Below, piece by piece: positions 19,381 through 37,817 of a DNA stretch of 37,817 nt; the stretch's first letter is position 1, and the number at the start of each line of letters is the position of its first letter. Source of the DNA: Bacillota bacterium (lineage in GTDB: Bacteria; Bacillota; Limnochordia; Darwinibacteriales; Darwinibacteriaceae); NCBI GenBank assembly GCA_012838305.1, contig DUPN01000033.1, positions 1 through 37,817 on the forward strand. The letters run 5' to 3'. The notes beneath the pieces were generated by a model that was not told the DNA's origin, ran no database searches, and was given only the letters and a program-made list of their open reading frames with translations. The position numbers were made by a program, and so were the translations under genes.

Positions 19381-21009
19381 CTACCCCCTGCCATCCAATT
19401 GGTTTGGGGGTTTTTTCGATCCCATGGCGGCCTGCACAAATCCTAAGAACAAGGGATGTGGCCTGTTGGGCCTGCTTTTGAATTCGGGATGGAACTGAAC
19501 ACCGATAAAAAACTCCTTATTGGACAGCTCAATCGCCTCCACCAGGCGGTCATCGGGGGATGTTCCACAGATTCCTAGCCCCTGTTGCACCAGCTCCTTG
19601 CGGAAGGTATTATTGAACTCAAAGCGATGGCGGTGACGCTCGCTGATGAGCTCTGTTTTATACAGGCTGTACAGGCGCGATCCCTCAGCCACTTTGCAGG
19701 GGTAGGCCCCAAGGCGCATCGTTCCGCCGCTTCCGACCTTGCCTGCTTGTCCCGGCAAAAGATCGATCACAGGATAGGGACTGTCTTGATCAAACTCGGT
19801 GGAATGGGCTCCTTCCAGGGCGCATACATGGCGGGCAAACTCAATCACCGCAACCTGCATACCCAGGCAGATGCCAAGATAGGGAAGATTACGCTCCCGC
19901 GCATAGCGGCAGGCTTGAATCTTTCCCTCAATTCCCCTTTCCCCAAATCCCCCAGGAATGAGCACAGCATCGACTTGACCCAGCAGACGATCAACCGTTT
20001 GCTCCGTCACATGTTCGCTGTCCACCCAGCGGATAGTAATCTGCGCACCTGCTTCGAACCCGGCGTGGTGGAGGCTCTCCACAATGGAGAGATAGGCATC
20101 GGGGAGTTGGACGTACTTGCCCACAAGGGCGATGGTGGCGCCGGTCTTTGGGGAGTCGATTTTGCGCACCATCAGTTCCCATTGGGTCAACTCAGGTTCG
20201 GGGACATCAATTCCCAGTTCCCGACAGACCACTTCATCCAGTCCGTTTCTGTGCAGCATGAGGGGAGCTGCGTAGAGGGACGGGAGTGTGGTGTTCTCGA
20301 TCACACAGTCGGACTTAACATCACAGAAGAGGGCGATCTTCTCCTTGATGGCCGGGGGCAAGGCCTGATCAGAGCGGGTGACGATGATATCTGGAGATAT
20401 GCCCATGGAGCGAAGCTCCTTCACGGAATGCTGGGTGGGTTTGGATTTGTGTTCGCCTGCGCTTTGCAGATAGGGAACGAGTGTAACATGGATGGACAGA
20501 CAATGTTCGGGTCCCTGCTCGTGGGAGATTTGGCGGATAGCTTCAATGAAGGGTTGACCTTCGATATCCCCTACTGTACCCCCGATCTCCACGATGAGCA
20601 CATCTGCTTGGCTTGCCGCCGCCCCGGCATAGATAAAGCTTTTGATGGTGTCAGTGACATGGGGAATCACTTGCACAGTACCCCCCTGGTAATCGCCGGA
20701 CCGTTCGCGACCCAAGACGGTCCAGTATACTTGTCCCGAGGTGAGGTTGCTCAATTTCGTCAGGTTTTCGTCGATAAAGCGCTCATAGTGACCCAAATCC
20801 AAGTCGGTTTCGGCTCCGTCGTCTGTAACAAAGACTTCTCCATGTTGAAAGGGACTCATGGTGCCGGGATCAACATTGATATACGGATCAAGCTTCTGCG
20901 CCGCGACTGTCAATCCCCGCTGTTTGAGAAGGCGCCCTAGAGCTGCTGCTGTAATTCCCTTGCCCAGTCCCGAAACCACTCCGCCTGTGATGAAGATGAA
21001 CTTGGTCAT
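19381..21009 (-). CDS. pyrG: CTP synthase
   Basis: This 542-residue enzyme aminates UTP to CTP with ATP and glutamine. The synthetase domain begins [18 protein letters not shown]. The glutaminase domain has GGFGERG, the nucleophile motif GICLGMQ and the His-Glu of FHPEFKSRP. Upstream codons extend the frame to 21045, but ATG 21009 with the purine-rich AGGGGGGAAG site is the family start. Its last codons double as the rpsI terminator. It is convergent with rpsI and probably monocistronic. Confidence 0.97.
19383..19416 (+). terminator. Intrinsic terminator of rplM-rpsI, inside pyrG 3' end
   Basis: ACCCCC (19383-19388) pairs with GGGGGT (19406-19411), with inner CCA/TGG pairing possible, then TTTTTT runs to 19416. 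The whole hairpin and T-run lie within the last codons of the convergent pyrG. There they encode [11 protein letters not shown]. Confidence 0.85.
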
Positions 21010-21029
21010 CGCTCTTCCCCCCTGAGAAT

Positions 21030-21058
21030 AGTGTATTCTTACCAAGAGAAGCTGTCCA
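21030..21058 (-). promoter_or_regulatory. Candidate promoter of pyrG
   Basis: On the minus strand TGGACA (21053-21058), a 17-base spacer and TACACT (21030-21035) resemble a sigma-70 promoter (5 of 6 and 4 of 6 matches). It would give a very short leader before ATG 21009. A TTGACA at 21084-21089 lacks a good -10. Confidence 0.4.
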
Positions 21059-21141: not shown

Positions 21142-23259
21142 TTACTCTCCGGGCTCTTCCGGGAGGATGGGCTCCTCAGGGGGGGGTTCCTCCCCTGGAG
21201 GAGCTGGGGGAGGTTCAGGCGGAGTTGGTTCCGTTGGTTCAATCGGTTCAATCGGTTCAATCGGTTCAGGCTCGGGCTCAGGTTCCGGTTCGGGTTCAGG
21301 CTCGGGCTCAGGTTCCGGTTCAGGTTCAGGCTCGGGCTCAGGTTCCGGCTCGGGTTCAGGTACAGGTACAGGGGTCCGTTCCACAGGGGGTGTGCGCGGA
21401 GCAGGCGGAGGCTCCGGGGGAGGGAGGGCGCATGGAGCTAATTGGGTGGGCTTGGTTCCTTCAATGAACGCATCCCGCTCGACTTGGGCACAGCGTTCGC
21501 TGGCCAAGAGTCCAGTAAAGACGTCAATCAGGACATTGGTCTCAACCTTGTCGGGCACCTCAAATTCGTCAGGGGTCTCCTCGCTGTCTTCATCGTCCGC
21601 ATTGACCTCTTTTGTGTCCGGCTCGGTCTGGGCAAGGGCTTCGGTCATAAACTGCACCCAGAGATCACCCGCCAGTAACTGGGGTTGCGCTGCAGTCTCA
21701 TCTTCGCTTGGGGCCTTCACCATTACGCCAACAAGCAGGCTTGGTGTATAACCGATGGCCCACTCAGAAGCATCATTCGGCGATGAACTGGCTGTGAGTG
21801 CTGCGGGAAAGTCCACATCCAGGGAACGGATACTGCCGTACTGGGTGCCAGGCATGAGCATATCTGTGAACAGGTAGGCCTGTTCAGCAGACAGAATCCG
21901 CCGGGCAGTGTCGGTGGGCTGGGCTAGGACCGTCTGGTTTTGCGTGTCGGTAACCTTTTCAAAGCCGGAGACGGGTATATAGTTTCCTCCATTGACACCT
22001 GGCATGTAAGCCGCTGTCAGCTCAAGCAGGGACAGTCCCTCTCGGACTTCGCCCATAACTAAGCGGAGATGCTGATCGACCTCTTCGATCGTAAGATCAA
22101 CCGATTCTGCGAACTCGTTGAACCTCTCAATACCGAGTTCATTGAGTGTCCAAGCTGCCGCGTTGTTCAGGTCCATTACTAAGGCATGCTTCATCGTGAC
22201 GGGTCCCCAGTAGCGATCGCCGGCGTTGTCCACCCGGAAATCCTCAAACTCGCGCTGGATATCCTGGACAAGATGATTCAAGGCCCAGCTTTCCTGCAGC
22301 CCTGTGGCATAGATCAGAGGTCTTAAGGTAGTCGCCACTTCCTGCCTTTTCACAGTGGCTAAATTCGTGGAGTCTTCTAGATAGTTTCTGCCTCCCACCA
22401 TGGCCAAAACAGCACCGCTCTTGGGATCCAGAGCGACTAAGGCCCCATCGAGTTCAGCATCTTGAAACATGTTCTCGGCAAGTTTCTGCAGCTCTCGATT
22501 TAAAGTGGTGGTAACTCGCAGGCCCCCTTGATACACTCGCTCCTCGCCTAACTCGTCCAGGAGGATGTTACCAAGATAGTCGGAGAAATGGTGAGCGTAT
22601 CCCGGTTCGTGACGTTCGGTGTCAATCCCTTGCTGCGCTGCTTGTTCCTGTTCGGTCTGGTCGATATGCCCGCTCTGCTCCATGTGCGCAAGGATGGTGT
22701 TACGGGCTTCTTTCGCCCTGTCTGGATCACGAAAGGGCGAAGCTTGATCAGATTCTTCTATTAACGCGGCCAACAGAGCGCTTTGGGCCAAATCGATGGC
22801 TCCAACGGGTTTGGCGAAATAGGTCTGACTTGCAGCCTCTGCACCATAGGCGCCTTCGCCGAAGTAAGCACTGTTTAGGTACATTTCTAAGCGCTCTCGC
22901 TCAGAGTAACGTCGGTTGAGGACAGAAGGAAGAACAGCTAGCTGCAGACGGGACCAAAGCCCTTGCGGCTCCACGATCAGCCTGGCCAAACGCTGGTTGA
23001 TGGTGGTGTCGTCCTGGGTCGACTTCACCGCGTTTTGCAGACTTTCGGGAGTCTGCGCTAGGGGTATGTACACATTTCCCTTTCCGAGCCGCTTGATCAC
23101 TTCGCCAGTTTGATCATACAAGACGGCTCCCGGCAGGGGTCTCGACTCTTCAAAAACTGTGATCTGCCGCCCAGCCTGTGCATACAGACTAGCTGCAATG
23201 GCGGCCCCAATAAGGAGCACCAAGGTGATGAGCAAAACAAAGAGATTCCTTCTATTCAT
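21142..23259 (-). CDS. Class A penicillin-binding protein homologue, apparently inactive
   Basis: This is an intact 705-residue frame with a strong GAGGAGGTG site. It has an N-terminal membrane anchor (residues 6-28), a GT51-like region (about 60-210), a transpeptidase-like region (about 240-540), an acidic linker, and a Pro-Glu tail from about residue 630. The GT51 fold motifs MYLNSAYFGEGAYGAEAA and TYFAKP are kept. However, the catalytic ED is replaced by Q82-D83, roughly 30 residues that normally follow are missing, and the second Glu (KXKE) aligns with RLQL at 104-107. In the transpeptidase, SXXK aligns with T310-T-L-R313, SXN with D363-L-N and KTG with LTA near 488-490. Both enzymes would be dead. 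I infer a conserved pseudoenzyme with a scaffolding or regulatory role in wall synthesis. Alignments were made by eye. Confidence 0.85.
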   Translation of the reverse strand: MNRRNLFVLLITLVLLIGAAIAASLYAQAGRQITVFEESRPLPGAVLYDQTGEVIKRLGKGNVYIPLAQTPESLQNAVKSTQDDTTINQRLARLIVEPQGLWSRLQLAVLPSVLNRRYSERERLEMYLNSAYFGEGAYGAEAASQTYFAKPVGAIDLAQSALLAALIEESDQASPFRDPDRAKEARNTILAHMEQSGHIDQTEQEQAAQQGIDTERHEPGYAHHFSDYLGNILLDELGEERVYQGGLRVTTTLNRELQKLAENMFQDAELDGALVALDPKSGAVLAMVGGRNYLEDSTNLATVKRQEVATTLRPLIYATGLQESWALNHLVQDIQREFEDFRVDNAGDRYWGPVTMKHALVMDLNNAAAWTLNELGIERFNEFAESVDLTIEEVDQHLRLVMGEVREGLSLLELTAAYMPGVNGGNYIPVSGFEKVTDTQNQTVLAQPTDTARRILSAEQAYLFTDMLMPGTQYGSIRSLDVDFPAALTASSSPNDASEWAIGYTPSLLVGVMVKAPSEDETAAQPQLLAGDLWVQFMTEALAQTEPDTKEVNADDEDSEETPDEFEVPDKVETNVLIDVFTGLLASERCAQVERDAFIEGTKPTQLAPCALPPPEPPPAPRTPPVERTPVPVPEPEPEPEPEPEPEPEPEPEPEPEPEPEPEPEPIEPIEPIEPTEPTPPEPPPAPPGEEPPPEEPILPEEPGE
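21236..21358. repeat. Tandem repeats encoding the Pro-Glu tail
   Basis: Three 9-base units GGTTCAATC (21236-21262) are followed by three near-identical 30-base units at 21269-21298, 21299-21328 and 21329-21358, differing by about one or two bases. On the minus strand they encode Ile-Glu-Pro and then (Pro-Glu)n in the tail of the PBP-like protein. Short internal 6-base periodicity (GGYTCR) makes copy-number change by slippage likely. Confidence 0.9.
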
Positions 23260-23402
23260 GGCTTCACCTCCTCGCTTTAGTATTTGCCCAAAGGGACTCT
23301 TCCATGCACAGGGCTGTAAAAGGAGAAGGCCGAGTTCACAGGGATGGCTGGGATCCCATTGCTCCTTCTTTTATTGCTGGTTTACCAGGGCAGTCTTCTG
23401 TT

Positions 23403-23432
23403 TTGACAAGGCTTTCCCCTATCGTTTATAAT
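23403..23432 (+). promoter_or_regulatory. Sigma-70-type promoter of trxA
   Basis: TTGACA (23403-23408), an 18-base spacer and TATAAT (23427-23432) are full consensus hexamers, 32 bases before the trxA start. The rest of the 205-base gap between the divergent PBP-like gene and trxA shows no other element I can support. Confidence 0.88.
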
Positions 23433-24082: not shown

Positions 24083-27000
24083 CTACTTCTCTCCACCGAC
24101 TGCTGCCGGAGGTTTTCGTTCCAGACGATGGAAAACCTCATAGACTGTGGGGATCACAAAGAGTGTCAAGAAGGTCGACGTGAGTAGTCCTCCCATGATG
24201 GTGGCGGCCAAAGGCCTCTGGAACTCAGCTCCCACTCCCCGGGCCAAGACAACGGGCAAGAGGCCAAAGACAGTTGTAATTGTGGTCATCAAAATGGGAC
24301 GCAAACGAACTTGACAAGCCTCTAGAATTGCTTCCCGCACGGGAAGGTTCGGATTTTGGCCTCTGCGAAGGTTGATGTAGTCCACAAGCACAATGGCATT
24401 GTTCACTACCACTCCTGCCAAGACGATAATACCTATAATCGACATGATGCCGACATTTCCACCCACGAGCCACAAACCGATTAAAGCGCCAATCAGGGCC
24501 AGAGGAATGGTAAACATGATAATAAAGGGCTGGACAAAGGACTCGAATTGGGCCGCCATTACAAGATAGACTAAGGCCACGGCTAAAACGAGGGCAAGAA
24601 GGAGTTCATCAATGGATTCGCCGATCATCGTCTGTAAACCGCCTATGCTGACATGGTAGCCAGGGGGAATGTCCATATCTGCGAGGATATCTTCGCTGAT
24701 GCGGACCGCCTGGGTAAGGGATAAATCGCCTAGAATTCCAATCACCCTGGCCAGGTTCAGACGGTCGGCACGCTGGGAGAGTGCTAGATTGGGTTGAACT
24801 TCAGGTGTGACCACTTCGCTTAGAAGAATCGGCTCACTGCCAAGGTTCTCAATTTGAACCGGAGAGGTGATGCGAGTGTTGAGCAGATCATCTACTGAAT
24901 CAATGGACGAGCTTGGTCTGAGCACAACTGGAAGGGATCTGTCTCCAATTTGCAGGTCGGTGGCCTTCAAACCTGCTGTGGCATAGCGCATACCCAAGCC
25001 AACTTGTCCCGCAGTAAAGCCTCCCAAAATGCTGCGGGAGGTATCCACCTTGAGGAACAGGTCTTTGGCCGGCCGAAAACCTGAGTCTTGCACATCCCTG
25101 AATCCTGGGATTTTGCTCAATTCGTCCCGCAGCTCCGCCGCTATAGCAGCGCACACCTGGGCACTCTGACCGCGAATATCAATGGTTAGGTTCGGTGTCA
25201 TCAGTGTACTAACGGAGGTGCCAAACAAAGATGTGTCCGAGATATTGGTTCGGAGTACACCATGCTTCTCCATGATATCATGGATGTCCTGGGTTAGGTC
25301 TTTGGCCATGCGCTCGCGTTCGCTGTGGGGTACTAGGGTAATAGAAAACATGGCGTTATCCAGTCCGGTACCCGCGAGCAGAGAGAGCAGATCCATTTCC
25401 CCTTGATCACCGGATTGCACAGCCACAGATGCTATTTCTGGAATCGCCATCAAATCGTTCTCGATGGCTATCACCAATTCCCGTGCGGTTTCCAAAGGCA
25501 AGCCTGACGGGAAATTGGTGTTCACCCCCAAAAACCCTTCATCGAAAGTGGGCAGGAACTCTTGGTCCATGCGGGGATAGATCAGAAGAGCTGTCCCAAG
25601 AAGCACCACAACTATGGTAAAGATAAGGGGCTTTTTGTCCAAAGCCTGCTTGAGAAGATTAGCGTAACCAGCCCGGAATTTAGCGAACTTGGCATCTGTT
25701 TTTTCCGCACTGGATGCCGCGTTTCTCTTCAGGAATTTTGAGGCTAACATGGGTAAGACGCTGAGAGACACGATCAAGGACGCCAAAAGTGCATAGGATA
25801 TGCTTAAGCCAAACTCTTTAAGCAACTGCCCTGCAAAGCTGCCTAGGAAAATGATGGGTAGAAAGATGACCACGGATGTTGCAGTGGAGGCGATTAACGC
25901 TCCTGCAATTTCTCCAGCTCCATGTGCTGCGGCCAATCGCGGATTGGCCTCTGTGCCGCGGTGACGGAAGACATTCTCCAAAACTACGATGGAGGAGTCC
26001 ACCAGCATACCGACTCCTAAGGCCATGCCTCCGAGGGTCATCAGGTTAAGGGATAGATTGGAAAAATACAACAAGACAAAACTAGCAATAATGGACACAG
26101 GAATGGATAAACCTACAATCAAGAGACTGGAAACGTTGCGCAGGAAAAACCAAAGAACCGCAATGGCAAGGATACCACCGATGATGCCGCTTGATGCCAA
26201 AGAGCCAATGCTTTGGTTGATGAAGACAGACTGATCTGTAATGGTAGCAAAACGGAGATGCGGACGATCCGTCTCAATCTTCTTCAGGGTCTCCTTGAGA
26301 TCCGCCGCTACTTGCACGGTGTTAGCCCCACTTTGCCGCATCACCTGGATCAAAATGGTGTCTTGCCCATCGTGGCGGGTGATGCCGTCTCTGGGTTCGA
26401 TATGGGTGGTGACCTCAGCAACATCGCTCAAATAGGTTAAGGACGGGAGAAGGCCCCCTAAACCCAGGATGCCGCTTCCTTGTCTCATGCCAACAATAAT
26501 GTTCTCCAGCTCTTCCACGCTGCCGATTTGGCTGCCGGCACGCGTTGTGTAACGGGTTCCATCGGCGGTCACTGCACCACCAGGGACGATAATGTTTTGG
26601 TACATAATGAGCTGCTGGAGGATAACGGGCGTTAGGCCAACTTCGTTGAGGTAATCCGGATCGAAAAGCACTTGAACCTCTTCTTTGCTGGTGCCGAACA
26701 AGCTGACTTGAGCTACGCCAGGCAATTGTTCCAGCTGGGGTTTGATCTCCGCTATTTCCTCGGAAAGGTCCACAGCGGAAAGATTCTGCGAGCTAACCCC
26801 GATTAACATGAGGGGAAAAGCGTTCGGATCAATTTGGACCACGACGGGATCTTCTGCGTCTGCCGGCAGCGATAAACTCACCTGGGCCAGCTTGCTGCGG
26901 ATCTCATCAAGTGCGCTGAGCATATCGGTACCCCAGTCAAATTGGAGCACCACTGCGGAAACGTCTTCCATGCTGTAGGATTCCATGAACTTGAGGCCGC

Positions 27001-27223
27001 TGATGCCTGAAACGCTGCCTTCGACAGGAATGGTTATGTTCTGTTCGATGGCGTTAGCTGCGCCGCCCGGATAAACAGTCACCACTGCGGCAATGGGCAA
27101 ATCCAGGTTCGGTAGCAGATCGATCCCTATTCGCTGCAGGGAGATAACTCCGAATAATAAAGTGATAATGACCACAACCGTAACGGCGACGGGTCTGCGT
27201 ACCGCAAGTTTTGACAGTTGCAT
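24083..27223 (-). CDS. RND-family efflux permease (AcrB/SwrC-like)
   Basis: This 1,046-residue inner-membrane pump would export hydrophobic compounds using the proton gradient. It starts MQLSKLAVRRPVAV with TM1, has two large extracytoplasmic loops, and ends with a TM block containing VVNNAIVLVDYINL. The TM4 proton-relay motif is GMLVDSSIVVLENV: the first Asp (409) is kept and the second is Ser 410, as opposed to the Asp pair in AcrB. No membrane-fusion partner or regulator is adjacent. B. subtilis SwrC is also a lone RND. AAGGAGGA precedes ATG 27223. Substrate cannot be told. Confidence 0.92.
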   Translation of the reverse strand: MQLSKLAVRRPVAVTVVVIITLLFGVISLQRIGIDLLPNLDLPIAAVVTVYPGGAANAIEQNITIPVEGSVSGISGLKFMESYSMEDVSAVVLQFDWGTDMLSALDEIRSKLAQVSLSLPADAEDPVVVQIDPNAFPLMLIGVSSQNLSAVDLSEEIAEIKPQLEQLPGVAQVSLFGTSKEEVQVLFDPDYLNEVGLTPVILQQLIMYQNIIVPGGAVTADGTRYTTRAGSQIGSVEELENIIVGMRQGSGILGLGGLLPSLTYLSDVAEVTTHIEPRDGITRHDGQDTILIQVMRQSGANTVQVAADLKETLKKIETDRPHLRFATITDQSVFINQSIGSLASSGIIGGILAIAVLWFFLRNVSSLLIVGLSIPVSIIASFVLLYFSNLSLNLMTLGGMALGVGMLVDSSIVVLENVFRHRGTEANPRLAAAHGAGEIAGALIASTATSVVIFLPIIFLGSFAGQLLKEFGLSISYALLASLIVSLSVLPMLASKFLKRNAASSAEKTDAKFAKFRAGYANLLKQALDKKPLIFTIVVVLLGTALLIYPRMDQEFLPTFDEGFLGVNTNFPSGLPLETARELVIAIENDLMAIPEIASVAVQSGDQGEMDLLSLLAGTGLDNAMFSITLVPHSERERMAKDLTQDIHDIMEKHGVLRTNISDTSLFGTSVSTLMTPNLTIDIRGQSAQVCAAIAAELRDELSKIPGFRDVQDSGFRPAKDLFLKVDTSRSILGGFTAGQVGLGMRYATAGLKATDLQIGDRSLPVVLRPSSSIDSVDDLLNTRITSPVQIENLGSEPILLSEVVTPEVQPNLALSQRADRLNLARVIGILGDLSLTQAVRISEDILADMDIPPGYHVSIGGLQTMIGESIDELLLALVLAVALVYLVMAAQFESFVQPFIIMFTIPLALIGALIGLWLVGGNVGIMSIIGIIVLAGVVVNNAIVLVDYINLRRGQNPNLPVREAILEACQVRLRPILMTTITTVFGLLPVVLARGVGAEFQRPLAATIMGGLLTSTFLTLFVIPTVYEVFHRLERKPPAAVGGEK

Positions 27224-27329
27224 GAAAATCCTCCTTCAAGGTATAAGGCAGGCTGTTTCCGCCTCTGTATAGGTTCGGGTTTGGGTCGGGTTATCCTCCC
27301 TTTTTTGGTGGGAAGGAGTGGAAAAGGAT

Positions 27330-27842
27330 ATGGGTAGATCTAGCAGGTTAGTGTGGCCCTTGCTTGTCCTGATCGGGATCTGCAGCTTAGCCCTATACCT
27401 TTGGTGGGGCGGAAGAGCTCCACTTGTACCCTCTCCTCCAGGTGAAGACGGGGGGGAAGGAAAACTGGAGGGTTGGCGCCAGACTTTTTCCGAAGCGGAC
27501 CTCGACCTCTTGGCCAGGGTGGTGAGGGCAGAAGCCCAGGGAGAACCCTATGACGGTCAGGTGGCCGTGGCTGCTGTGATCTTAAACAGGGTCAATCATC
27601 CAGAGTTTCCCAACACGATTCCGGGCGTCGTGTACGAGCCTCTGGCTTTTTCGGTTGTGGCCAATGGACAAGTCAATAAGCCCGCGGATCAAAGCGCCAT
27701 CCAAGCAGCCCACTGTGCCCTCAACGGCTTGGATCCATCTGGAGGCGCTTTGTATTTCTACAATCCTGCCAAGACCCGAAGTGCGTGGATTCGCAGCCGC
27801 GCGGTGATCAAAACAATCGGGGATCATATTTTCGCTAGTTAG
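27330..27842 (+). CDS. sleB: SleB-type cell wall hydrolase (spore germination)
   Basis: This 170-residue protein has an N-terminal membrane segment (residues 8-26), a short linker, and a SleB/CwlJ-type hydrolase domain. The domain begins LLARVVRAEAQGEP, with the likely catalytic Glu at residue 68, and continues AVAAVILNRV and the C-terminal ALYFYNP. Such enzymes are lytic transglycosylases acting on spore cortex. It lacks the peptidoglycan-binding domain of full-length SleB. Pairing with ypeB 12 bases downstream supports a cortex role. GTG 27318 is an in-frame alternative start. Confidence 0.85.
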   Translation: MGRSSRLVWPLLVLIGICSLALYLWWGGRAPLVPSPPGEDGGEGKLEGWRQTFSEADLDLLARVVRAEAQGEPYDGQVAVAAVILNRVNHPEFPNTIPGVVYEPLAFSVVANGQVNKPADQSAIQAAHCALNGLDPSGGALYFYNPAKTRSAWIRSRAVIKTIGDHIFAS

Positions 27843-27854
27843 GGGTCTACACGC

Positions 27855-29126
27855 ATGCCCAAGAGTGTGAAAGGCAAGCTCATAGCCATAGTGTTCGTAG
27901 TTGGATTGCTTGGTGTGGGGTATGCCGCAGGACAGTATTATCTCCATGGCATCTATCAGCGGCAAGTGGAGGTAGGTTATCGCCGAGCCTTAGGGGAACT
28001 CTGCAGCCACCTGGATGAAATTACTAAAGAGATGGGCCGTGCCAGGCTGGCGGTGAGTCCCAAACAGCGCAGTCTGATCAGTGCCAACCTGCGTCGTCTG
28101 GTTTACGCTGCCCAAAGCAATATGGGTGAGTTACCCCTGGGAGAGATCCATCTGGAGCGGATCTCCCATCTTTTAGATCGCATCGATGCAGAGAGTCATG
28201 CCTATTGGCAGGATGGCGATAACTCGCCGCTTTTGGATCAGCTCCACGAACAAATAGGGTATGTGAGTCGTGAGTTTGGGCAGTTGGTGGAGCGCAAAGA
28301 TCAGGAGTTCCCCTGGGTCTTTTGGTACGAGTATTTCTCCACTGCAGCCGTTGTACCCCAATTTCTGCAGGCTCTGACCCTAATCAATGACGGATTGGAG
28401 GAATTTGATGCTCCTGTACGTCAAGGAACAATTTTGGGCGAAGACATCGATGGAGAGCAGGCCATAGAAGCGGCCAGAGTGTTTAGCGAACGGGAGAATC
28501 TAAATTTTCAGGTAATCAGTGAAACCAAAGGCAGCATTCCCTCCTATACGGTGGTGGCGATAGACGGCGAGGAGAGGGTTATAGTCGAAGTGTCCCAAAA
28601 GGGCGGGATGGTTTTGTGGATGACGGTGGCTTCAGCAGTTCAAGACAATCGGGCAGGCACCCTCACCTTAGAGGAAATAATCAAACAAGGATGGGGGTTT
28701 TTGGAAGAAAGGGGGTTTACGTCCTTACACATTACGGATGCTCAAACCTTGCAAAACAGGGTAACCTTGACCTTTGTTCCCATGCGGGAAGGGGTCTTGC
28801 ACTATGGAGAGCCCCTGAGGGTGCAAGTAAGTGCAGTTGATGGCAGTATTATCGGTTTCTGGGCAACCTCGTTTTTCTTAGCTCAAAGCAGAGTGCGGCC
28901 CGAACGAACCGTTGGGGAGGCTGCTTGGAGTGTTAACGAGAAGATCCAGGCAGGTGTTGAGATCCTCGATCAAAAGATGGCCCTGATCCTCAATGAACAG
29001 CAGAAAGAGACCTTAACGACCAGGCTCGGTGTGCAGTATCAAGGGGATTACTATTTAATCTACTTGAATTTCGAGACGGGGGATGAAGAGCATATTGTAC
29101 AAGTTGCTTCACCCCAGTTCTTCTAG
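27855..29126 (+). CDS. ypeB: Germination protein YpeB
   Basis: This 423-residue protein is needed in Bacillus for SleB placement and stability in the spore inner membrane. It has an N-terminal signal anchor (VKGKLIAIVFVVGLLG), a helical N-terminal domain, then PepSY-like repeats in the C-terminal half (for example GEQAIEAARVF, LTLEEIIKQGWGFLEERGF and RTVGEAAWSVNEKI). It forms an operon with the SleB gene. Its stop shares the CTAG with the convergent dnaE2 stop. Confidence 0.88.
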   Translation: MPKSVKGKLIAIVFVVGLLGVGYAAGQYYLHGIYQRQVEVGYRRALGELCSHLDEITKEMGRARLAVSPKQRSLISANLRRLVYAAQSNMGELPLGEIHLERISHLLDRIDAESHAYWQDGDNSPLLDQLHEQIGYVSREFGQLVERKDQEFPWVFWYEYFSTAAVVPQFLQALTLINDGLEEFDAPVRQGTILGEDIDGEQAIEAARVFSERENLNFQVISETKGSIPSYTVVAIDGEERVIVEVSQKGGMVLWMTVASAVQDNRAGTLTLEEIIKQGWGFLEERGFTSLHITDAQTLQNRVTLTFVPMREGVLHYGEPLRVQVSAVDGSIIGFWATSFFLAQSRVRPERTVGEAAWSVNEKIQAGVEILDQKMALILNEQQKETLTTRLGVQYQGDYYLIYLNFETGDEEHIVQVASPQFF

Positions 29127-32100
29127 GGCAGTCCCTGGATTCGGGTTGCATTGATGCTGGCCCGTTCATGAGGATCACGCCGGGAGATCTTCCCAGTTAC
29201 AAGCAGCAAAGGCTGATTAAAGATAATTTTTGCATACTTTCGATAGATGTCTTCAAAGATTGTTACATCAATCAGGCCGTACTCGTCTTCCAGCGATAAA
29301 AAGACTACGGTTTTGCCGCTGCGGGTGGGCGGACGATGGGGTCGTATCACCAGACCTCCTAAGGTAAGGGGACTGCCCTCTGTGAGAAGGGAGGCATCTT
29401 GGGTCGTAAGTGCCTTCGCGGGGAGATTTGGGCGAAAAAACTCCATAATATGTCCCTGGGCCGAAAGACTGAGAACAGCATATTCTCTGACCCAGCGTTC
29501 AAAGGGAGAAAAGTCTGCGACAGTATTTTGAGTGGGAGTTTCCAAGAAGAGACTCCCCTGTTTTGTTTGATAGTATTTCGGCAAATTCCAAAGCAGCATC
29601 CGGCGATTGTTTAAAAGACTGTCGAATGCTCCCCCTAGAATTAGGTTTTCCACCACATCCTTATTGACATTGGTGCGATAGACAAAGTCTTGCAGGGAGG
29701 AAAAATGCCTTTTGCTGCGCGCTGCAACAATGGAATTGAGAAAGGCGGCTTCCATGCCCTTAACCTGCTTGAGACCAATGCGAATGGAGGTATCGGTGGC
29801 GGTAAATTCCACATCGCTTTCATTGATATCCAGGGGGGCAAGGGTAATTCCACGGTTTTTGGCTTGGACACAGAGTGTGTTGGGGGGATAAAAGCCCATG
29901 GGCTGCTGGTTCAAGAGTGCTGCATAGAACTGAGCGGGATGGTGTTCTAAAAGGTAAGCGGTGCGATAGGCTGTATCTGCAAAAGCTGCGGCATGGGCTT
30001 CGCAAAAACCATATCCTGCATAACCCAGGACATAGGAAAAAATCGTTTCCGCCGTCTCCTTTTCCACACCCCGCTTAACGGCTTTTTGGATAAAGTCCAC
30101 CTGAATTTGATCCATCTCTTTTTGGGAGCGAAACTTTGTCATCGCCTTACGCAAACGGTCAGACTCTCCTGGGGTAAACCCGGCAATCTCCGTGGCGATT
30201 TCAATCACCTGTTCCTGATAAAGCACAACACCATAGGTGGGGGCTAGGATCTTTTCCAGTTTCGGGTGGATATAGGTTACTGCTTCACGTCCATGCCTGC
30301 GGGCAATAAAGGGATCCACCATATTGCCCTTGATGGGGCCTGGTCTGATCAAAGCCACGCTGGCCACAATATCTTCGAAGCGGTCCGCTTGCAGACGCGA
30401 TTGTAAGCTGCGCTGGGCTGGACTTTCCAGCTGAAACACCCCTACTGTTTCTCCCTTCTGAAGCCTGGCAAAGGTAGCTTTGTCGTCGATGGGTATTTCA
30501 TTGTAGTCCAGCCTGGGCCCAACTTGATTTACTGCAGTGGAAACGGCGGATAGGGTACGCAAGGACAGAAGATCGATTTTGATCAGCCCCAAATCCTCAA
30601 TGGTGTCCTTGTCAAACTGGGTGATCAAGACCCCTTTTGCTGAGGGCTGCAAAGGTGTAACCGTGGTTAGGGGCTCGCCGCTCACCACCAAACCTCCTAG
30701 ATGGGTCCCCATTTGCCTGGGAAAACCCGTAATGGCAGCACAGTAATCCAAGAGCTTACTGTATTTGGCCTGATGTAGGGGATGTTTTTTCAGCTCAGGC
30801 AGTCTGTGCAGCAGAGAACGAATGCCATCCGCGGGAATACTGGTGATATTTTTGGTCAACTGCTGTAACTCACTGAGGGGAAGCCCCAAGGCCTTGCCCA
30901 TATCCCGCAGGGCCGAGCGGGCATGGTAGGTTTGGAAGGTGCAGACAGAGGCCACCCGTTCAGGCCCATAGCGCTCATAGACATACTGGGCCACCTGATC
31001 TCGATGGCGCGCATCAAAATCAATGTCGATATCGGGTTTCTGCGCTCGCTCTAGACTCAAAAAACGCTCAAACAGGAGTCCTCTGGCAAAGGCATCCACA
31101 TTGGTGATTTCAAGGCAATAGACCACAACGGAGTCGGCTGCTGAGCCCCGGCCGGCATAGCGTATGTTTTGTTCCTTAGCATATTGCACCAGATCCCAGA
31201 CCGCCAGAAAATAGTCAGCCACATCAAGCTGCTTAATGATTTCCAGCTCGTGTTGAATTCGTTCTCTTAAGGGGCGGGAGATGGATGCATAGCGCTTTTG
31301 GGCTCCATTCCAGGTCAATTCGCCTAGGACTTGAATGGATTTTTCCGGTCCGGCGTGAGGAAAGTAGCGGGGGAAGAGGTTCTTACCCAAATCCAGAGCC
31401 AAGGAGCAGCGATCTGCAATTTCCAATGTATTTCGAATGGCTTCGGGGAAGGGGGCAAAGCGCCGTTTCATTTCTTCCGGTGAGGTCAAATAGTTTTCTC
31501 CGTTTATGGGGCGATCCAGATGGAGCTCGTCAAGCCTTGTCTTGGTCCGGGTGCAAACCAGCAGATCGTGGATGGGAAAATCTTCTTTCCGTAGATAATG
31601 TACATTGTTGGTAGCCACCAATGGAATGCGTAATTCTTCATGGAGTTTGAAAAGTCCGCCAAGGAGGTATTTTGTAAAAGGCAGATAACTATGGATTATT
31701 TCCAGATAGACTTGGTTGGATCCAAAGATCTCCACAAGGCGCAAAGCCTCAGCTTTAGCCTGTGCATAGTCTTTACGCAAAATAGCTTGAGCCACACCTG
31801 AGCGGTGGCAGCCGCTCAGGACAAGTAAGCCGCGGTTGTTTTTGGCCAGAGCCTTCCAGGGCACTAAGGGCTGGTGTCTGGTACCATGGGCATACCCTGC
31901 CGTTAATAGGCGGCATAAAGCATGGTAACCGTCTCTGTTTTCGGCCAGCAGGGTGAGATGGGTGCCGTCTTCTGTGGTAATTTCGGCACCTTGAATAGGT
32001 TTTAAACCTAAGGCCAACGCTGTTTTTTGAAATTCCACCGCTCCGCTCACATTGCTATGGTCGGTTAAGGCCATGGCCGGCATATCCCACTTTGCTGCCT

Positions 32101-32176
32101 GAGTAAGAAGTGCCTCCAGTCGCGAGGCTCCATCTAAAAACGAATAGGGAGAATGAACATGTAAATGGACGAACAC
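29123..32176 (-). CDS. dnaE2: Error-prone DNA polymerase III alpha, DnaE2/ImuC type
   Basis: This 1,017-residue C-family polymerase has an N-terminal PHP domain (HLHVHSPYSFLDG, TDHSN, GAEI), a palm with catalytic Asp residues D382 and D384 in PDIDIDFDARHRDQV and D535 in KIDLLSL, and a C-terminal OB fold. GFPRQMGTHLGGLVVSG and a short C-terminus point to DnaE2 rather than replicative DnaE. The start is GTG 32176 after GGAGGT. It is last in a three-gene cassette under a LexA-box promoter, so translesion synthesis during SOS is the likely role. The replicative polymerase must be elsewhere. Confidence 0.88.
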   Translation of the reverse strand: MFVHLHVHSPYSFLDGASRLEALLTQAAKWDMPAMALTDHSNVSGAVEFQKTALALGLKPIQGAEITTEDGTHLTLLAENRDGYHALCRLLTAGYAHGTRHQPLVPWKALAKNNRGLLVLSGCHRSGVAQAILRKDYAQAKAEALRLVEIFGSNQVYLEIIHSYLPFTKYLLGGLFKLHEELRIPLVATNNVHYLRKEDFPIHDLLVCTRTKTRLDELHLDRPINGENYLTSPEEMKRRFAPFPEAIRNTLEIADRCSLALDLGKNLFPRYFPHAGPEKSIQVLGELTWNGAQKRYASISRPLRERIQHELEIIKQLDVADYFLAVWDLVQYAKEQNIRYAGRGSAADSVVVYCLEITNVDAFARGLLFERFLSLERAQKPDIDIDFDARHRDQVAQYVYERYGPERVASVCTFQTYHARSALRDMGKALGLPLSELQQLTKNITSIPADGIRSLLHRLPELKKHPLHQAKYSKLLDYCAAITGFPRQMGTHLGGLVVSGEPLTTVTPLQPSAKGVLITQFDKDTIEDLGLIKIDLLSLRTLSAVSTAVNQVGPRLDYNEIPIDDKATFARLQKGETVGVFQLESPAQRSLQSRLQADRFEDIVASVALIRPGPIKGNMVDPFIARRHGREAVTYIHPKLEKILAPTYGVVLYQEQVIEIATEIAGFTPGESDRLRKAMTKFRSQKEMDQIQVDFIQKAVKRGVEKETAETIFSYVLGYAGYGFCEAHAAAFADTAYRTAYLLEHHPAQFYAALLNQQPMGFYPPNTLCVQAKNRGITLAPLDINESDVEFTATDTSIRIGLKQVKGMEAAFLNSIVAARSKRHFSSLQDFVYRTNVNKDVVENLILGGAFDSLLNNRRMLLWNLPKYYQTKQGSLFLETPTQNTVADFSPFERWVREYAVLSLSAQGHIMEFFRPNLPAKALTTQDASLLTEGSPLTLGGLVIRPHRPPTRSGKTVVFLSLEDEYGLIDVTIFEDIYRKYAKIIFNQPLLLVTGKISRRDPHERASINATRIQGLP

Positions 32177-32192
32177 CCCAAACGACCTCCAT

Positions 32193-32432
32193 TTAGTCTG
32201 CTAGACGGTACAAAACCCATTGTTCAGTACTTGGTAGAAAATGCAGTTCGCAGCGGCAGCGGTCTGTACTCACTTCGTACACAAACAGTTCTGATTCATC
32301 TGTCCACCATTGTCCGGCCTCTCGCCAATGCTGGAGAATATACTTAATGATGAAGTTTTGCCCGAAGAAAAAGGAAGAGGGGAAATCCCCTGCATAGGTA
32401 AGCAGGATGGGTTGATTAATAAGTTTGCTCAT
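32193..32432 (-). CDS. Small Trp-rich protein of the mutasome cassette
   Basis: This 79-residue protein lies between the ImuB-like gene (ATGA overlap of 4 bases) and dnaE2 (16-base gap). It contains YILQHWREAGQWWTDESE, a YEV strand, CELHFLP and the ending QWVLYRLAD. This W-X-X-G-X-W-W pattern resembles the small domain, possibly DUF6504, that is fused to or found near Y-family mutasome proteins in other phyla. That match is from memory and should be checked. I infer a partner or detached domain of the ImuB-like protein. Confidence 0.75.
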   Translation of the reverse strand: MSKLINQPILLTYAGDFPSSFFFGQNFIIKYILQHWREAGQWWTDESELFVYEVSTDRCRCELHFLPSTEQWVLYRLAD

Positions 32433-33538
32433 CGAAAACACTCCTCCCAGAGGATCAAGAGCCGTTCTCGCCGGGAAAGCTTCATACCCACTTGGGTATA
32501 ATCTGGAAGTTCCTCGCCAAGCAGCTGTGGAGCCTGGGGCTCCCAAAACATAGTGAGCTGGGCTAAAGGAGACGGCTCCAATTTGTCGACAGTAATCCTT
32601 ATTTGTGCCAGAAAATCATCAGGTAGAAGACTTTCCGCTGCCCGCAATAAAGCCTTTGCATCATTTGTGGCCTGCTTAAATAGGCGCTTCTTTTCAAAAG
32701 GTGTTCCCTGGGCTAACTGAGCCTCTAGTTTGATTTGACCAGCCACTTTCTGCTGGTCGTTTAGCGTGGCGGCTAGTTTTTGGGCACCCTGCTGAAGATA
32801 GGGCTTAAGTTCGTGGGCCGCAGCAGGCCGCAGAAAGCCCTCGAGGGCGGTGAAATCCAGGTTCCAACTGTATGTTAGGTCTTGTCGGGGCTGAAAGGGG
32901 ATGCTATCTTGACCGCGCCCGAGCTGCTGTAGAAGGATAGCTCTTTGTCCAAATTGAATGCTAAGCTCGGCAGCGGGGATTTTCTCCAACTCGCCCACAG
33001 TTTTTATGCCAAGTTTTTCTAAGGAGTCCGCCTCGGGCAGGGGTAAGCGTCGGATCGGGATCCTATCCAGAAAAAACCGTGTTTGATTGGGAGGAACGAT
33101 TCGGTCAGAACCCGTTCGATTATGGGCGGCCAATTTGGCCACTATTTTACTTTGACCTGCGCCCCAAATTCCACCTTCAATCCCCTTGTCTGCTTGCAGT
33201 TTTTCCCTGAAATCGACGACAAACTGCTCGAAAATGGGCCTCTGTCTAAAGCGCAAGTACCAGGCATGGGGATACTCTACCTCCAGTTCCTCTGTGTAGA
33301 GGCGTGAGAATTGATGCCATTCTTGGGCGAAGGGAGCAAAATCGCTGAGAGAAATGGGGATGGTGCAAATTGGCTTGGTGGGATGATTGGTAAAGCCGTG
33401 CTCCTTGAGTTCGGGGGAAAAATCCCAGATTTCCCTTTTGTGTGTTAAAATGTAATAAGCATCACTTTGCGATTCAGAGGCGCGAGGCGATTCAAAATGA
33501 CGAATATAAAAGTGGCGTAAGCCACAGTAGACGATCAT
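32429..33538 (-). CDS. imuB: ImuB-like inactive Y-family polymerase
   Basis: This 369-residue protein has the Y-family palm/finger segment GIWGAGQSKIVAKLAAHN, the thumb helix-hairpin-helix LGIKTVGELEKIPAAEL and LGRGQDSIPFQP. The Asp near the N-terminus and the Ser-X-Asp-Glu motif that bind catalytic metal in true polymerases are not seen (MIVYCGLRHFYI and YPHAWYLRFR stand there). A beta-clamp-like motif QLTMF is at residues 327-331. These are the traits of ImuB, the non-catalytic hub of the DnaE2 mutasome. AGGAGG precedes ATG 33538. Confidence 0.78.
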   Translation of the reverse strand: MIVYCGLRHFYIRHFESPRASESQSDAYYILTHKREIWDFSPELKEHGFTNHPTKPICTIPISLSDFAPFAQEWHQFSRLYTEELEVEYPHAWYLRFRQRPIFEQFVVDFREKLQADKGIEGGIWGAGQSKIVAKLAAHNRTGSDRIVPPNQTRFFLDRIPIRRLPLPEADSLEKLGIKTVGELEKIPAAELSIQFGQRAILLQQLGRGQDSIPFQPRQDLTYSWNLDFTALEGFLRPAAAHELKPYLQQGAQKLAATLNDQQKVAGQIKLEAQLAQGTPFEKKRLFKQATNDAKALLRAAESLLPDDFLAQIRITVDKLEPSPLAQLTMFWEPQAPQLLGEELPDYTQVGMKLSRRERLLILWEECFR

Positions 33539-33554
33539 AAAGATGCCTCCTCGA

Positions 33555-33566
33555 GAACAACTGTTC
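33555..33566. promoter_or_regulatory. LexA (SOS) box 1, upstream of imuB-like gene
   Basis: GAAC-AACT-GTTC is a perfect GAAC-N4-GTTC palindrome, the Firmicutes LexA/DinR operator. It lies between the -10 and the ribosome binding site of the mutasome cassette, so bound LexA would block the promoter start region. Confidence 0.85.
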
Positions 33567-33572
33567 GCCCCA

Positions 33573-33602
33573 ATTATAATACAGAACAAAGGTTCGAGTC
33601 AA
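33573..33602 (-). promoter_or_regulatory. Promoter of the SOS mutasome cassette
   Basis: On the minus strand TTGACT (33597-33602), an 18-base spacer and TATAAT (33573-33578) form a strong sigma-70 promoter. Its spacer holds LexA box 2, and LexA box 1 follows just downstream. Confidence 0.85.
33584..33595. promoter_or_regulatory. LexA (SOS) box 2, inside the promoter spacer
   Basis: GAAC-AAAG-GTTC is a second perfect GAAC-N4-GTTC site, with centres 29 bases from box 1. It sits between the -35 and -10, where LexA would directly exclude RNA polymerase. It is also 27 bases upstream of the divergent MBL-fold gene. Confidence 0.85.
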
Positions 33603-36990: not shown

Positions 36991-37817
36991 CTACAGGCTG
37001 ATCCCGTAGGTCTCTCGAGTAACACTGATATAGCGCTCGGCTAGTTCGTGGGCACCTTGAATGTCGAGCATATGGACGGAGGACTGTAAGCTTGTGAGGT
37101 ATTCGGGATGACCAAGGTGATACTGGGCTATTCCTTTTCTGTATAACAAGGCTCCAAGGCAGTGCGATAGGTAGTTATCATTGCAGAAATCGATTCCTTC
37201 TGTAGCCACCTTCAGGGCATTTTGGTGGTCGTCGATGCGGTGGTAGTTGTAGGACAGGTTGAAATAAATCTTGGCCCGAAGCAGTTTTTCGTGCCAGGTG
37301 GCATACATGCTTCCATCCAAATGTTTTAAGCAAAAGAGCATGATCTCATTGCTTAATTGTGCTTTCTCGTGGGAGAGGGATGTGGCAATCATGAACAAAA
37401 TCCGCAGCTCAAACTCTGTATACTTAAACGCATGGAAACGCTCCGGTTCGAAGTTGGGGTGGCTGATCTGCATGGCCGCACAAAAATCCTCCAAATCACC
37501 CTGACGAAGAGAAAAGTGTTTGTTAGCACCGGATAACATCAAGCGAAACTGCTCTGCGGCCACAATATTCACCAAGGTGCTCTTGGCACTCATATTACTG
37601 ATATAGTCCTCAAGGTTCTGGCTCAACTGCTGGAATGCGTCGAGATCATAATAGACGATCAAATCATCAAAGCGGTAGTAAAGCTCAAAGAGATCATTGG
37701 CATTACTATACGAGGCCAGGAGGGCTAATAGATCCCTTTTGTAGGTCAGGGACAGATGGGCCAGGGTATCATATCTGGGGACAACCTCTCCGTTTTCTAT
37801 TCTGCGCAGGGTATCTG
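36991..37817 (-). CDS. HTH XRE-family regulator with TPR-like C-terminus (partial)
   Basis: The gene runs off the right edge, with its stop at 36991. At least 275 residues are visible, ending VTRETYGISL. The part nearest the edge reads TLRRIENGEVVPRYDTL, which matches the last helices of a Cro/C1-type HTH. The rest is helical with TPR-like repeats (for example KIYFNLSYNYHRIDDHQNAL), as in Rgg/PlcR-like peptide-sensing or other HTH-TPR regulators. The true start is outside the window. It converges on the patatin gene. Confidence 0.75.
   Translation of the reverse strand, partial: DTLRRIENGEVVPRYDTLAHLSLTYKRDLLALLASYSNANDLFELYYRFDDLIVYYDLDAFQQLSQNLEDYISNMSAKSTLVNIVAAEQFRLMLSGANKHFSLRQGDLEDFCAAMQISHPNFEPERFHAFKYTEFELRILFMIATSLSHEKAQLSNEIMLFCLKHLDGSMYATWHEKLLRAKIYFNLSYNYHRIDDHQNALKVATEGIDFCNDNYLSHCLGALLYRKGIAQYHLGHPEYLTSLQSSVHMLDIQGAHELAERYISVTRETYGISL

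Follow-up and report, generated by a model that had tools for sequence, protein, structure and literature searches.

The question that is raised by this locus is whether a homologue of the class A penicillin-binding proteins (PBPs), in which the catalytic motifs of both domains are replaced while the reading frame remains open, is a gene in decay or a protein that has been retained for a purpose other than catalysis. The window, i.e., the whole stretch of 37,817 nucleotides analysed here, is contig 91 of an assembly of 2.68 Mb in 121 contigs. The original prediction, made from the sequence by eye, had suggested that the gene encodes a conserved pseudoenzyme and had pointed to its uninterrupted frame and its ribosome site. 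Both are indeed present: the frame has 705 codons with an ATG start and zero internal stops, and AGGAGG lies 7 nt upstream. The features of the gene, to which we refer below, are as follows.

21142..23259, minus strand: dead class A PBP homologue of 705 residues (P0001), identified from the frame, Pfam, phmmer and alignment.
23260..23272, minus strand: ribosome-binding site (AGGAGG, 7-nt spacer, then ATG), read from the sequence.
23146..23253, minus strand: N-terminal membrane anchor helix, residues 3-38, taken from the AlphaFold2 helix.
23008..23019, minus strand: former GT Glu1 site, T81-Q82-D83-D84 (ED changed to QD), with about 31 residues deleted right after D83 (alignment).
22681..23007, minus strand: truncated GT51 domain, Pfam Transgly positions 67-177 of 178, with motifs 4 and 5 retained.
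22939..22950, minus strand: former GT motif 3 (KxxE), now R104-(K deleted)-L105-Q106-L107, with Glu2 replaced by Leu (alignment).
22321..22332, minus strand: former SxxK box, T310-T311-L312-R313 (alignment).
22165..22173, minus strand: former SxN box, D363-L364-N365 (alignment).
21787..21795, minus strand: former KTG box, T489-A490-S491 (alignment).
21424..21570, minus strand: most constrained C-terminal segment, residues 564-612, common to the intact orthologues (omega 0.026 over 40 codons).
21145..21423, minus strand: Pro/Glu-rich low-complexity tail (PEPEPE...), which intact orthologues from the order have as well.

The 705-residue protein is a class A PBP in its sequence, its predicted fold and the position of its gene, but it has none of the tested catalytic signatures. 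The domain order, from the anchor to GT51 and then to the transpeptidase (TP) domain, is the class A layout. Both domains score above the Pfam cut-offs, with 83 bits for PF00912 and 36 bits (35.7) for PF00905, vs 233-237 bits for GT51 and 106-125 bits for the transpeptidase in the intact orthologues, so that annotation at the Pfam level would miscall the protein as an active penicillin target. The nearest NCBIfam model is TIGR02074 (PBP_1a), with 285 bits vs a cut-off of 508.75. The AlphaFold2 model (17 sequences; pTM 0.72, mean pLDDT 77), which is weakest at residues 324-349, at residues 472-479 and past residue 547, is predicted to adopt the overall class A PBP fold, and the top Foldseek matches to it are all class A PBPs, with the best superposition on E. 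coli PBP1b (3vma; TM 0.70 over 534 columns). With the PBP_1a class A PBPs, with PBP1b and with L. monocytogenes PBP4 (3zg7; phmmer 5e-42 to the window protein), the protein shares the anchor, the C-terminal half of GT51, the TP fold and the order of these parts, but it differs from them in lacking both active sites and in the deletion of the N-terminal GT51 segment.

The losses were placed by an alignment of the window protein with 28 intact orthologues and 20 further dead sequences (21 dead in all). In the GT51 half, the donor-side segment of motifs 1-2 is lost: residues 76-110 make up 35 residues in the window protein vs 67 in the intact forms, with the motif-3 Lys among the missing ones, and the gap of about 31 residues relative to the intact orthologues falls between 'ED' and 'GGSTIT'. 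It had been claimed that both GT glutamates are lost together with about 30 residues after the first one, and the alignment bears this out, with E82 changed to Q and Glu2 to L107. The motif-3 Lys is deleted in 18/18 members of the dead clade, where Glu2 is also replaced in every case (Leu in 13, Phe in 2, Ala in 2 and Ser in 1). At Glu1, a Glu can be aligned in 4/18 relatives of the dead clade, in a column that is uncertain because of the adjoining deletion. The stretch that matches residues 76-110 has 67 residues in the intact forms, 47-48 in G009 and G016, 46 in G015, 39 in G013 and 33-35 in the other dead forms, and the erosion of GT51 in the dead clade thereby looks stepwise. A GT51 scan of the whole order gave bimodal scores, 172-243 bits for near-complete domains vs 76-105 bits for truncated ones, with the truncated ones confined to the dead clade; besides these, there is one partial match of 60 bits (G034:C114).

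In the TP half, the Lys of SxxK is replaced by Arg in 18/18 members of the dead clade, the Ser of SxN by Asp in 19/19, and the Gly of KTG by Ser in 17/18 and by Thr in the remaining one, while the Ser position of SxxK holds Ser in 12/18, Thr in 5/18 and Gly in 1/18. The catalytic residues are retained by the 28 intact orthologues, the exceptions being Asp at Glu2 in one of them and Ser for the Thr of KTG in five. As had been read by eye, the Ser and Lys of SxxK in the window protein are gone (T310, R313), and so is the Ser of SxN (D363). The loss of KTG also stands, but its earlier placement at LTA, residues 488-490, does not, the box aligning one residue later. Intact Glu, Ser and Lys residues at other places of the domains, which would speak against a pseudoenzyme, were looked for in the alignment of the 28 intact and 21 dead sequences, and none was found.

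The persistence of Ser310 in two-thirds of the members (12/18) might be taken to mean an altered catalysis, in which a different reaction would be carried out by this Ser with Arg313 and Asp363, or by another residue; pseudoenzymes that have gained new chemistry are known from other families (PMC10211241). However, with Thr in five members and Gly in one there is no conserved nucleophile at this position, and no Lys general base is left there. Residual chemistry in the dead clade is thus unlikely from the sequences, and we give a new reaction very little chance. A decoy had also been suggested, and the protein, which resembles an antibiotic target, might be a beta-lactam decoy or resistance protein. 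Such a protein must bind the drug, yet neither the Ser-Lys pair needed for acylation nor KTG is left. Because it is the acylation machinery itself that is missing, the decoy is the least likely of the roles listed in the original prediction, the others being a scaffold and an allosteric control, and we consider it extremely improbable.

The dead form is not peculiar to one genome. The family has 23 genomes in nine genera, where 19 genomes of six genera carry the dead form and four genomes of three genera (G011, G012, G014 and G018) carry the intact form. The gene is present in all 19 genomes of the dead clade, some copies being cut by contig ends, and the frames are open across the domains; the copy of G005 has one TAG, which falls within the low-complexity tail region. 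The clade genomes that were seen by name are all MAGs or assemblies of uncultured bacteria (uncultured Bacillota or Firmicutes among the close relatives). A lone pseudogene or an assembly error is ruled out by the separate assemblies from several projects, by the intact frames and by the low omega given below. The search for conserved motif loss among homologues, which had been proposed as a check, thus found it in 19/19 genomes of the clade.

The intact genes of the four genomes are positional orthologues, sharing with the dead gene the locus, the gene order, the type of tail and about 39% identity, but differing from it in keeping EDxRFY, KIQE/KIEE, SAMK/SAIK, SLN and KTGT. Dead genomes and intact ones both have the order rpoA-rplQ-ecfA1-ecfA2-ecfT-truA-rplM-rpsI, followed by the PBP gene, and within the family the PBP gene is followed by trxA, an AcrB-type transporter, sleB-ypeB and dnaE. 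The sister families of the order (G024, G025, G031) have the same gene order minus trxA and the transporter. Since the locus is shared, the gene was inactivated at its ancestral site rather than acquired. The gene tree together with this synteny shows that the dead gene descends from an active class A PBP of this locus. In the gene tree the dead clade is monophyletic, the support being 100 for the clade that excludes L053, a long-branched sequence discussed below. In the concatenated tree of the neighbour genes, G011 with G018 and then G014, all intact, fall outside the dead clade, and G009 is the first branch within it. The dead clade is nested once in this species tree, so one loss explains the distribution, and the two trees agree with a single loss in the ancestor of six genera of this family of uncultured Bacillota.

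The selection on the gene was estimated as omega with a tree-based model (iqtree), using 4 sequences of the window genus and 5 of genus g4; in the window genus the estimate rests on this model because most pairs there are saturated in the pairwise NG86 estimate of dS. For the dead gene, omega is 0.084 in the window genus and 0.12 in g4, and forcing omega = 1 makes the fit worse by 534 and 532 log units, respectively, so that the purifying selection that had been named as a further check is present. The active class A PBP at a second locus of the same genomes has omega 0.023 in the window genus and 0.045 in g4, and the intact orthologues in the sister genera have 0.042. The constraint on the dead gene is strong, yet it falls short of that on intact copies by a factor of two to four, and the weaker selection relative to the second-locus PBP implies that some constraint has been lost.

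It could be argued that the gene is in slow decay, its activity lost and its open frames mere leftovers, and both the stepwise erosion of the GT domain (from 47-48 of 67 residues down to 33-35) and an omega two to four times that of the intact copies go in that direction. However, 19/19 genomes still have the gene although their synonymous divergence is near saturation, the two genera each reject omega = 1 by more than 530 log units, and a decaying gene would not persist across six genera. We therefore think decay highly unlikely. With the motif loss in 19/19 clade genomes and the purifying selection, the conserved pseudoenzyme of the original prediction is well supported as a reading of the sequences.

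The pattern of change gives an indication of what has been retained. Of the 82 columns that do not vary among the intact orthologues, 41 are unchanged in 90% or more of the dead ones, and the loss is enriched near the catalytic residues, with 16/21 columns lost within six residues of them, a distance of our own choice, vs 25/61 beyond (Fisher p = 0.01). The lost columns of the GT domain are scattered or deleted, none having a single replacement, while in the TP domain seven columns have one fixed new residue. By region, omega in the window genus is 0.19 for the anchor, 0.11 for the GT domain, 0.061 for the TP domain and 0.026 for the C-terminal segment, values obtained from small samples with synonymous sites near saturation. 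In our reading of these data, the GT half is eroding and the TP half would be under a new constraint, with shared ancestry contributing to the fixed residues.

In active PBPs the catalytic Lys and the Ser of SxN are hydrogen-bond neighbours. The Arg fixed for this Lys and the Asp fixed for this Ser could form a salt bridge, which would fill and stabilise the former catalytic pocket. Alternatively, the rebuilt pocket with Arg313 and Asp363 might be that of a non-catalytic ligand sensor, binding a stem peptide or another envelope ligand and reporting the status of the wall to partners. The replacements in the pocket are fixed rather than scattered (R313 in 18/18, D363 in 19/19, S491 in 17/18, V308 and V343 in 16/18), which speaks for a sensor, and the omega of the TP domain (0.061) is lower than that of the GT domain (0.11). 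But the fixed residues could equally mean the packing of a closed pocket, and the KTG motif, by which active PBPs hold the backbone of the substrate, has not been conserved as such. A sensor is thus an unlikely account, though one to be taken seriously. The long PEPEPE tail, which is found in dead and intact members, would also allow a passive structural tether made of the anchor and a Pro/Glu-rich wall-spanning tail, with the PBP body as a mere spacer. The tail is, however, the most variable part, and the PBP body and segment 564-612 are strongly constrained, which is needless for a spacer, so we regard the tether as quite improbable.

We now return to the conserved pseudoenzyme. The window genome also encodes two intact class A PBPs, five transpeptidase proteins without a GT51 match and three SEDS proteins, and so the catalysis of wall synthesis is covered from elsewhere in the genome. 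In most genomes of the dead clade there is just one intact class A PBP, with one extra in the window genome (PBP1C-like) and in G013. Where a dead synthase is conserved next to live ones, the simplest role for it is that of a scaffold or a regulator. The best reading, in our opinion, is accordingly a conserved pseudoenzyme that would act in wall synthesis as a scaffold or regulator alongside the active synthases. In the mechanism that we propose, a formerly bifunctional class A PBP would have lost catalysis once, in the ancestor of the six genera, and would since have been retained in peptidoglycan synthesis as a non-catalytic component anchored in the membrane. The C-terminal helices of the GT domain, the TP fold and the constrained C-terminal segment may provide a surface on which active wall synthases dock or by which they are regulated, and the simplest choice of partner would be the active class A PBP that remains at another place in the genome or one of the SEDS/class B pairs. 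We hold this explanation as a whole, the one-time loss followed by the non-catalytic role, to be probable, though by no means certain. The more specific statement, that a naturally occurring class A PBP with two dead domains has become fixed in a bacterial lineage to serve solely as a non-catalytic regulator of wall synthesis, its TP pocket being under new selection, also seems to us rather likely to be true.

It is noted that non-catalytic roles of PBPs have been inferred from engineered dead mutants. PBP2B of B. subtilis supports division without its transpeptidase activity (PMC5656894), and non-catalytic roles are reported for PBP3 and SpoVD of C. difficile (PMC12154710, preprint; PMC12713402). 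These differ from the present protein in that they are class B proteins with no GT domain and are naturally active, their inactivity having been engineered. If our explanation is true, the dead clade is their natural counterpart, where a whole lineage did the experiment: it shows which surfaces matter without catalysis, with the intact orthologues of this locus serving as controls, and it supplies intermediates of the erosion of the GT51 domain. A limited search of the open-licence literature found nothing relevant as a precedent for a natural pseudo-PBP, which gives weak support to its novelty. Another degenerate class A PBP, L053 (L122:6003-7682, G039:C36), occurs in another family of the class, which is represented by one genome. 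It is likewise without the same GT segment, but has SAFD, NPP and KVS in place of SxxK, SxN and KTG, and its transpeptidase falls just below the Pfam cut-off. In the gene tree it stands beside the dead clade on a very long branch (1.85), and none of the other genes of the window was found on its contig. L053 is possibly an independent loss.

Some further features of the window may be mentioned. At 36991-37662 on the minus strand, a 223-residue protein is encoded that has no Pfam match at E 0.001. The CTP synthase gene pyrG (19381-21045, minus strand) lies between rpsI and the PBP gene in only some members of the genus, namely G000, G002, G004 and G007; it is missing from this place in G005, in G006 and in the other genera that were examined. 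A perfect sigma-70 consensus promoter (TTGACA-18-TATAAT) stands before trxA at 23403-23432 on the plus strand and points away from the PBP gene. The transporter at 24083-27223 on the minus strand is of the AcrB/RND type (726 bits), in a Bacillota genome; it is retained near the PBP gene within the family and is absent from the locus in the sister families. At 27318-29126 on the plus strand, a SleB-like cell wall hydrolase is followed by YpeB, and both are kept at the locus in dead and intact lineages. SleB and YpeB are a spore-germination pair, and their presence here suggests a spore-forming ancestry. Finally, a DnaE-type polymerase (29123-32176, minus strand) has just upstream of it a Y-family-like protein (32429-33589, minus strand), in which only the IMS_C domain was detected and no catalytic IMS domain; the two are neighbours in the sister families of the order too, and their pairing is reminiscent of the ImuB-DnaE2 pair.
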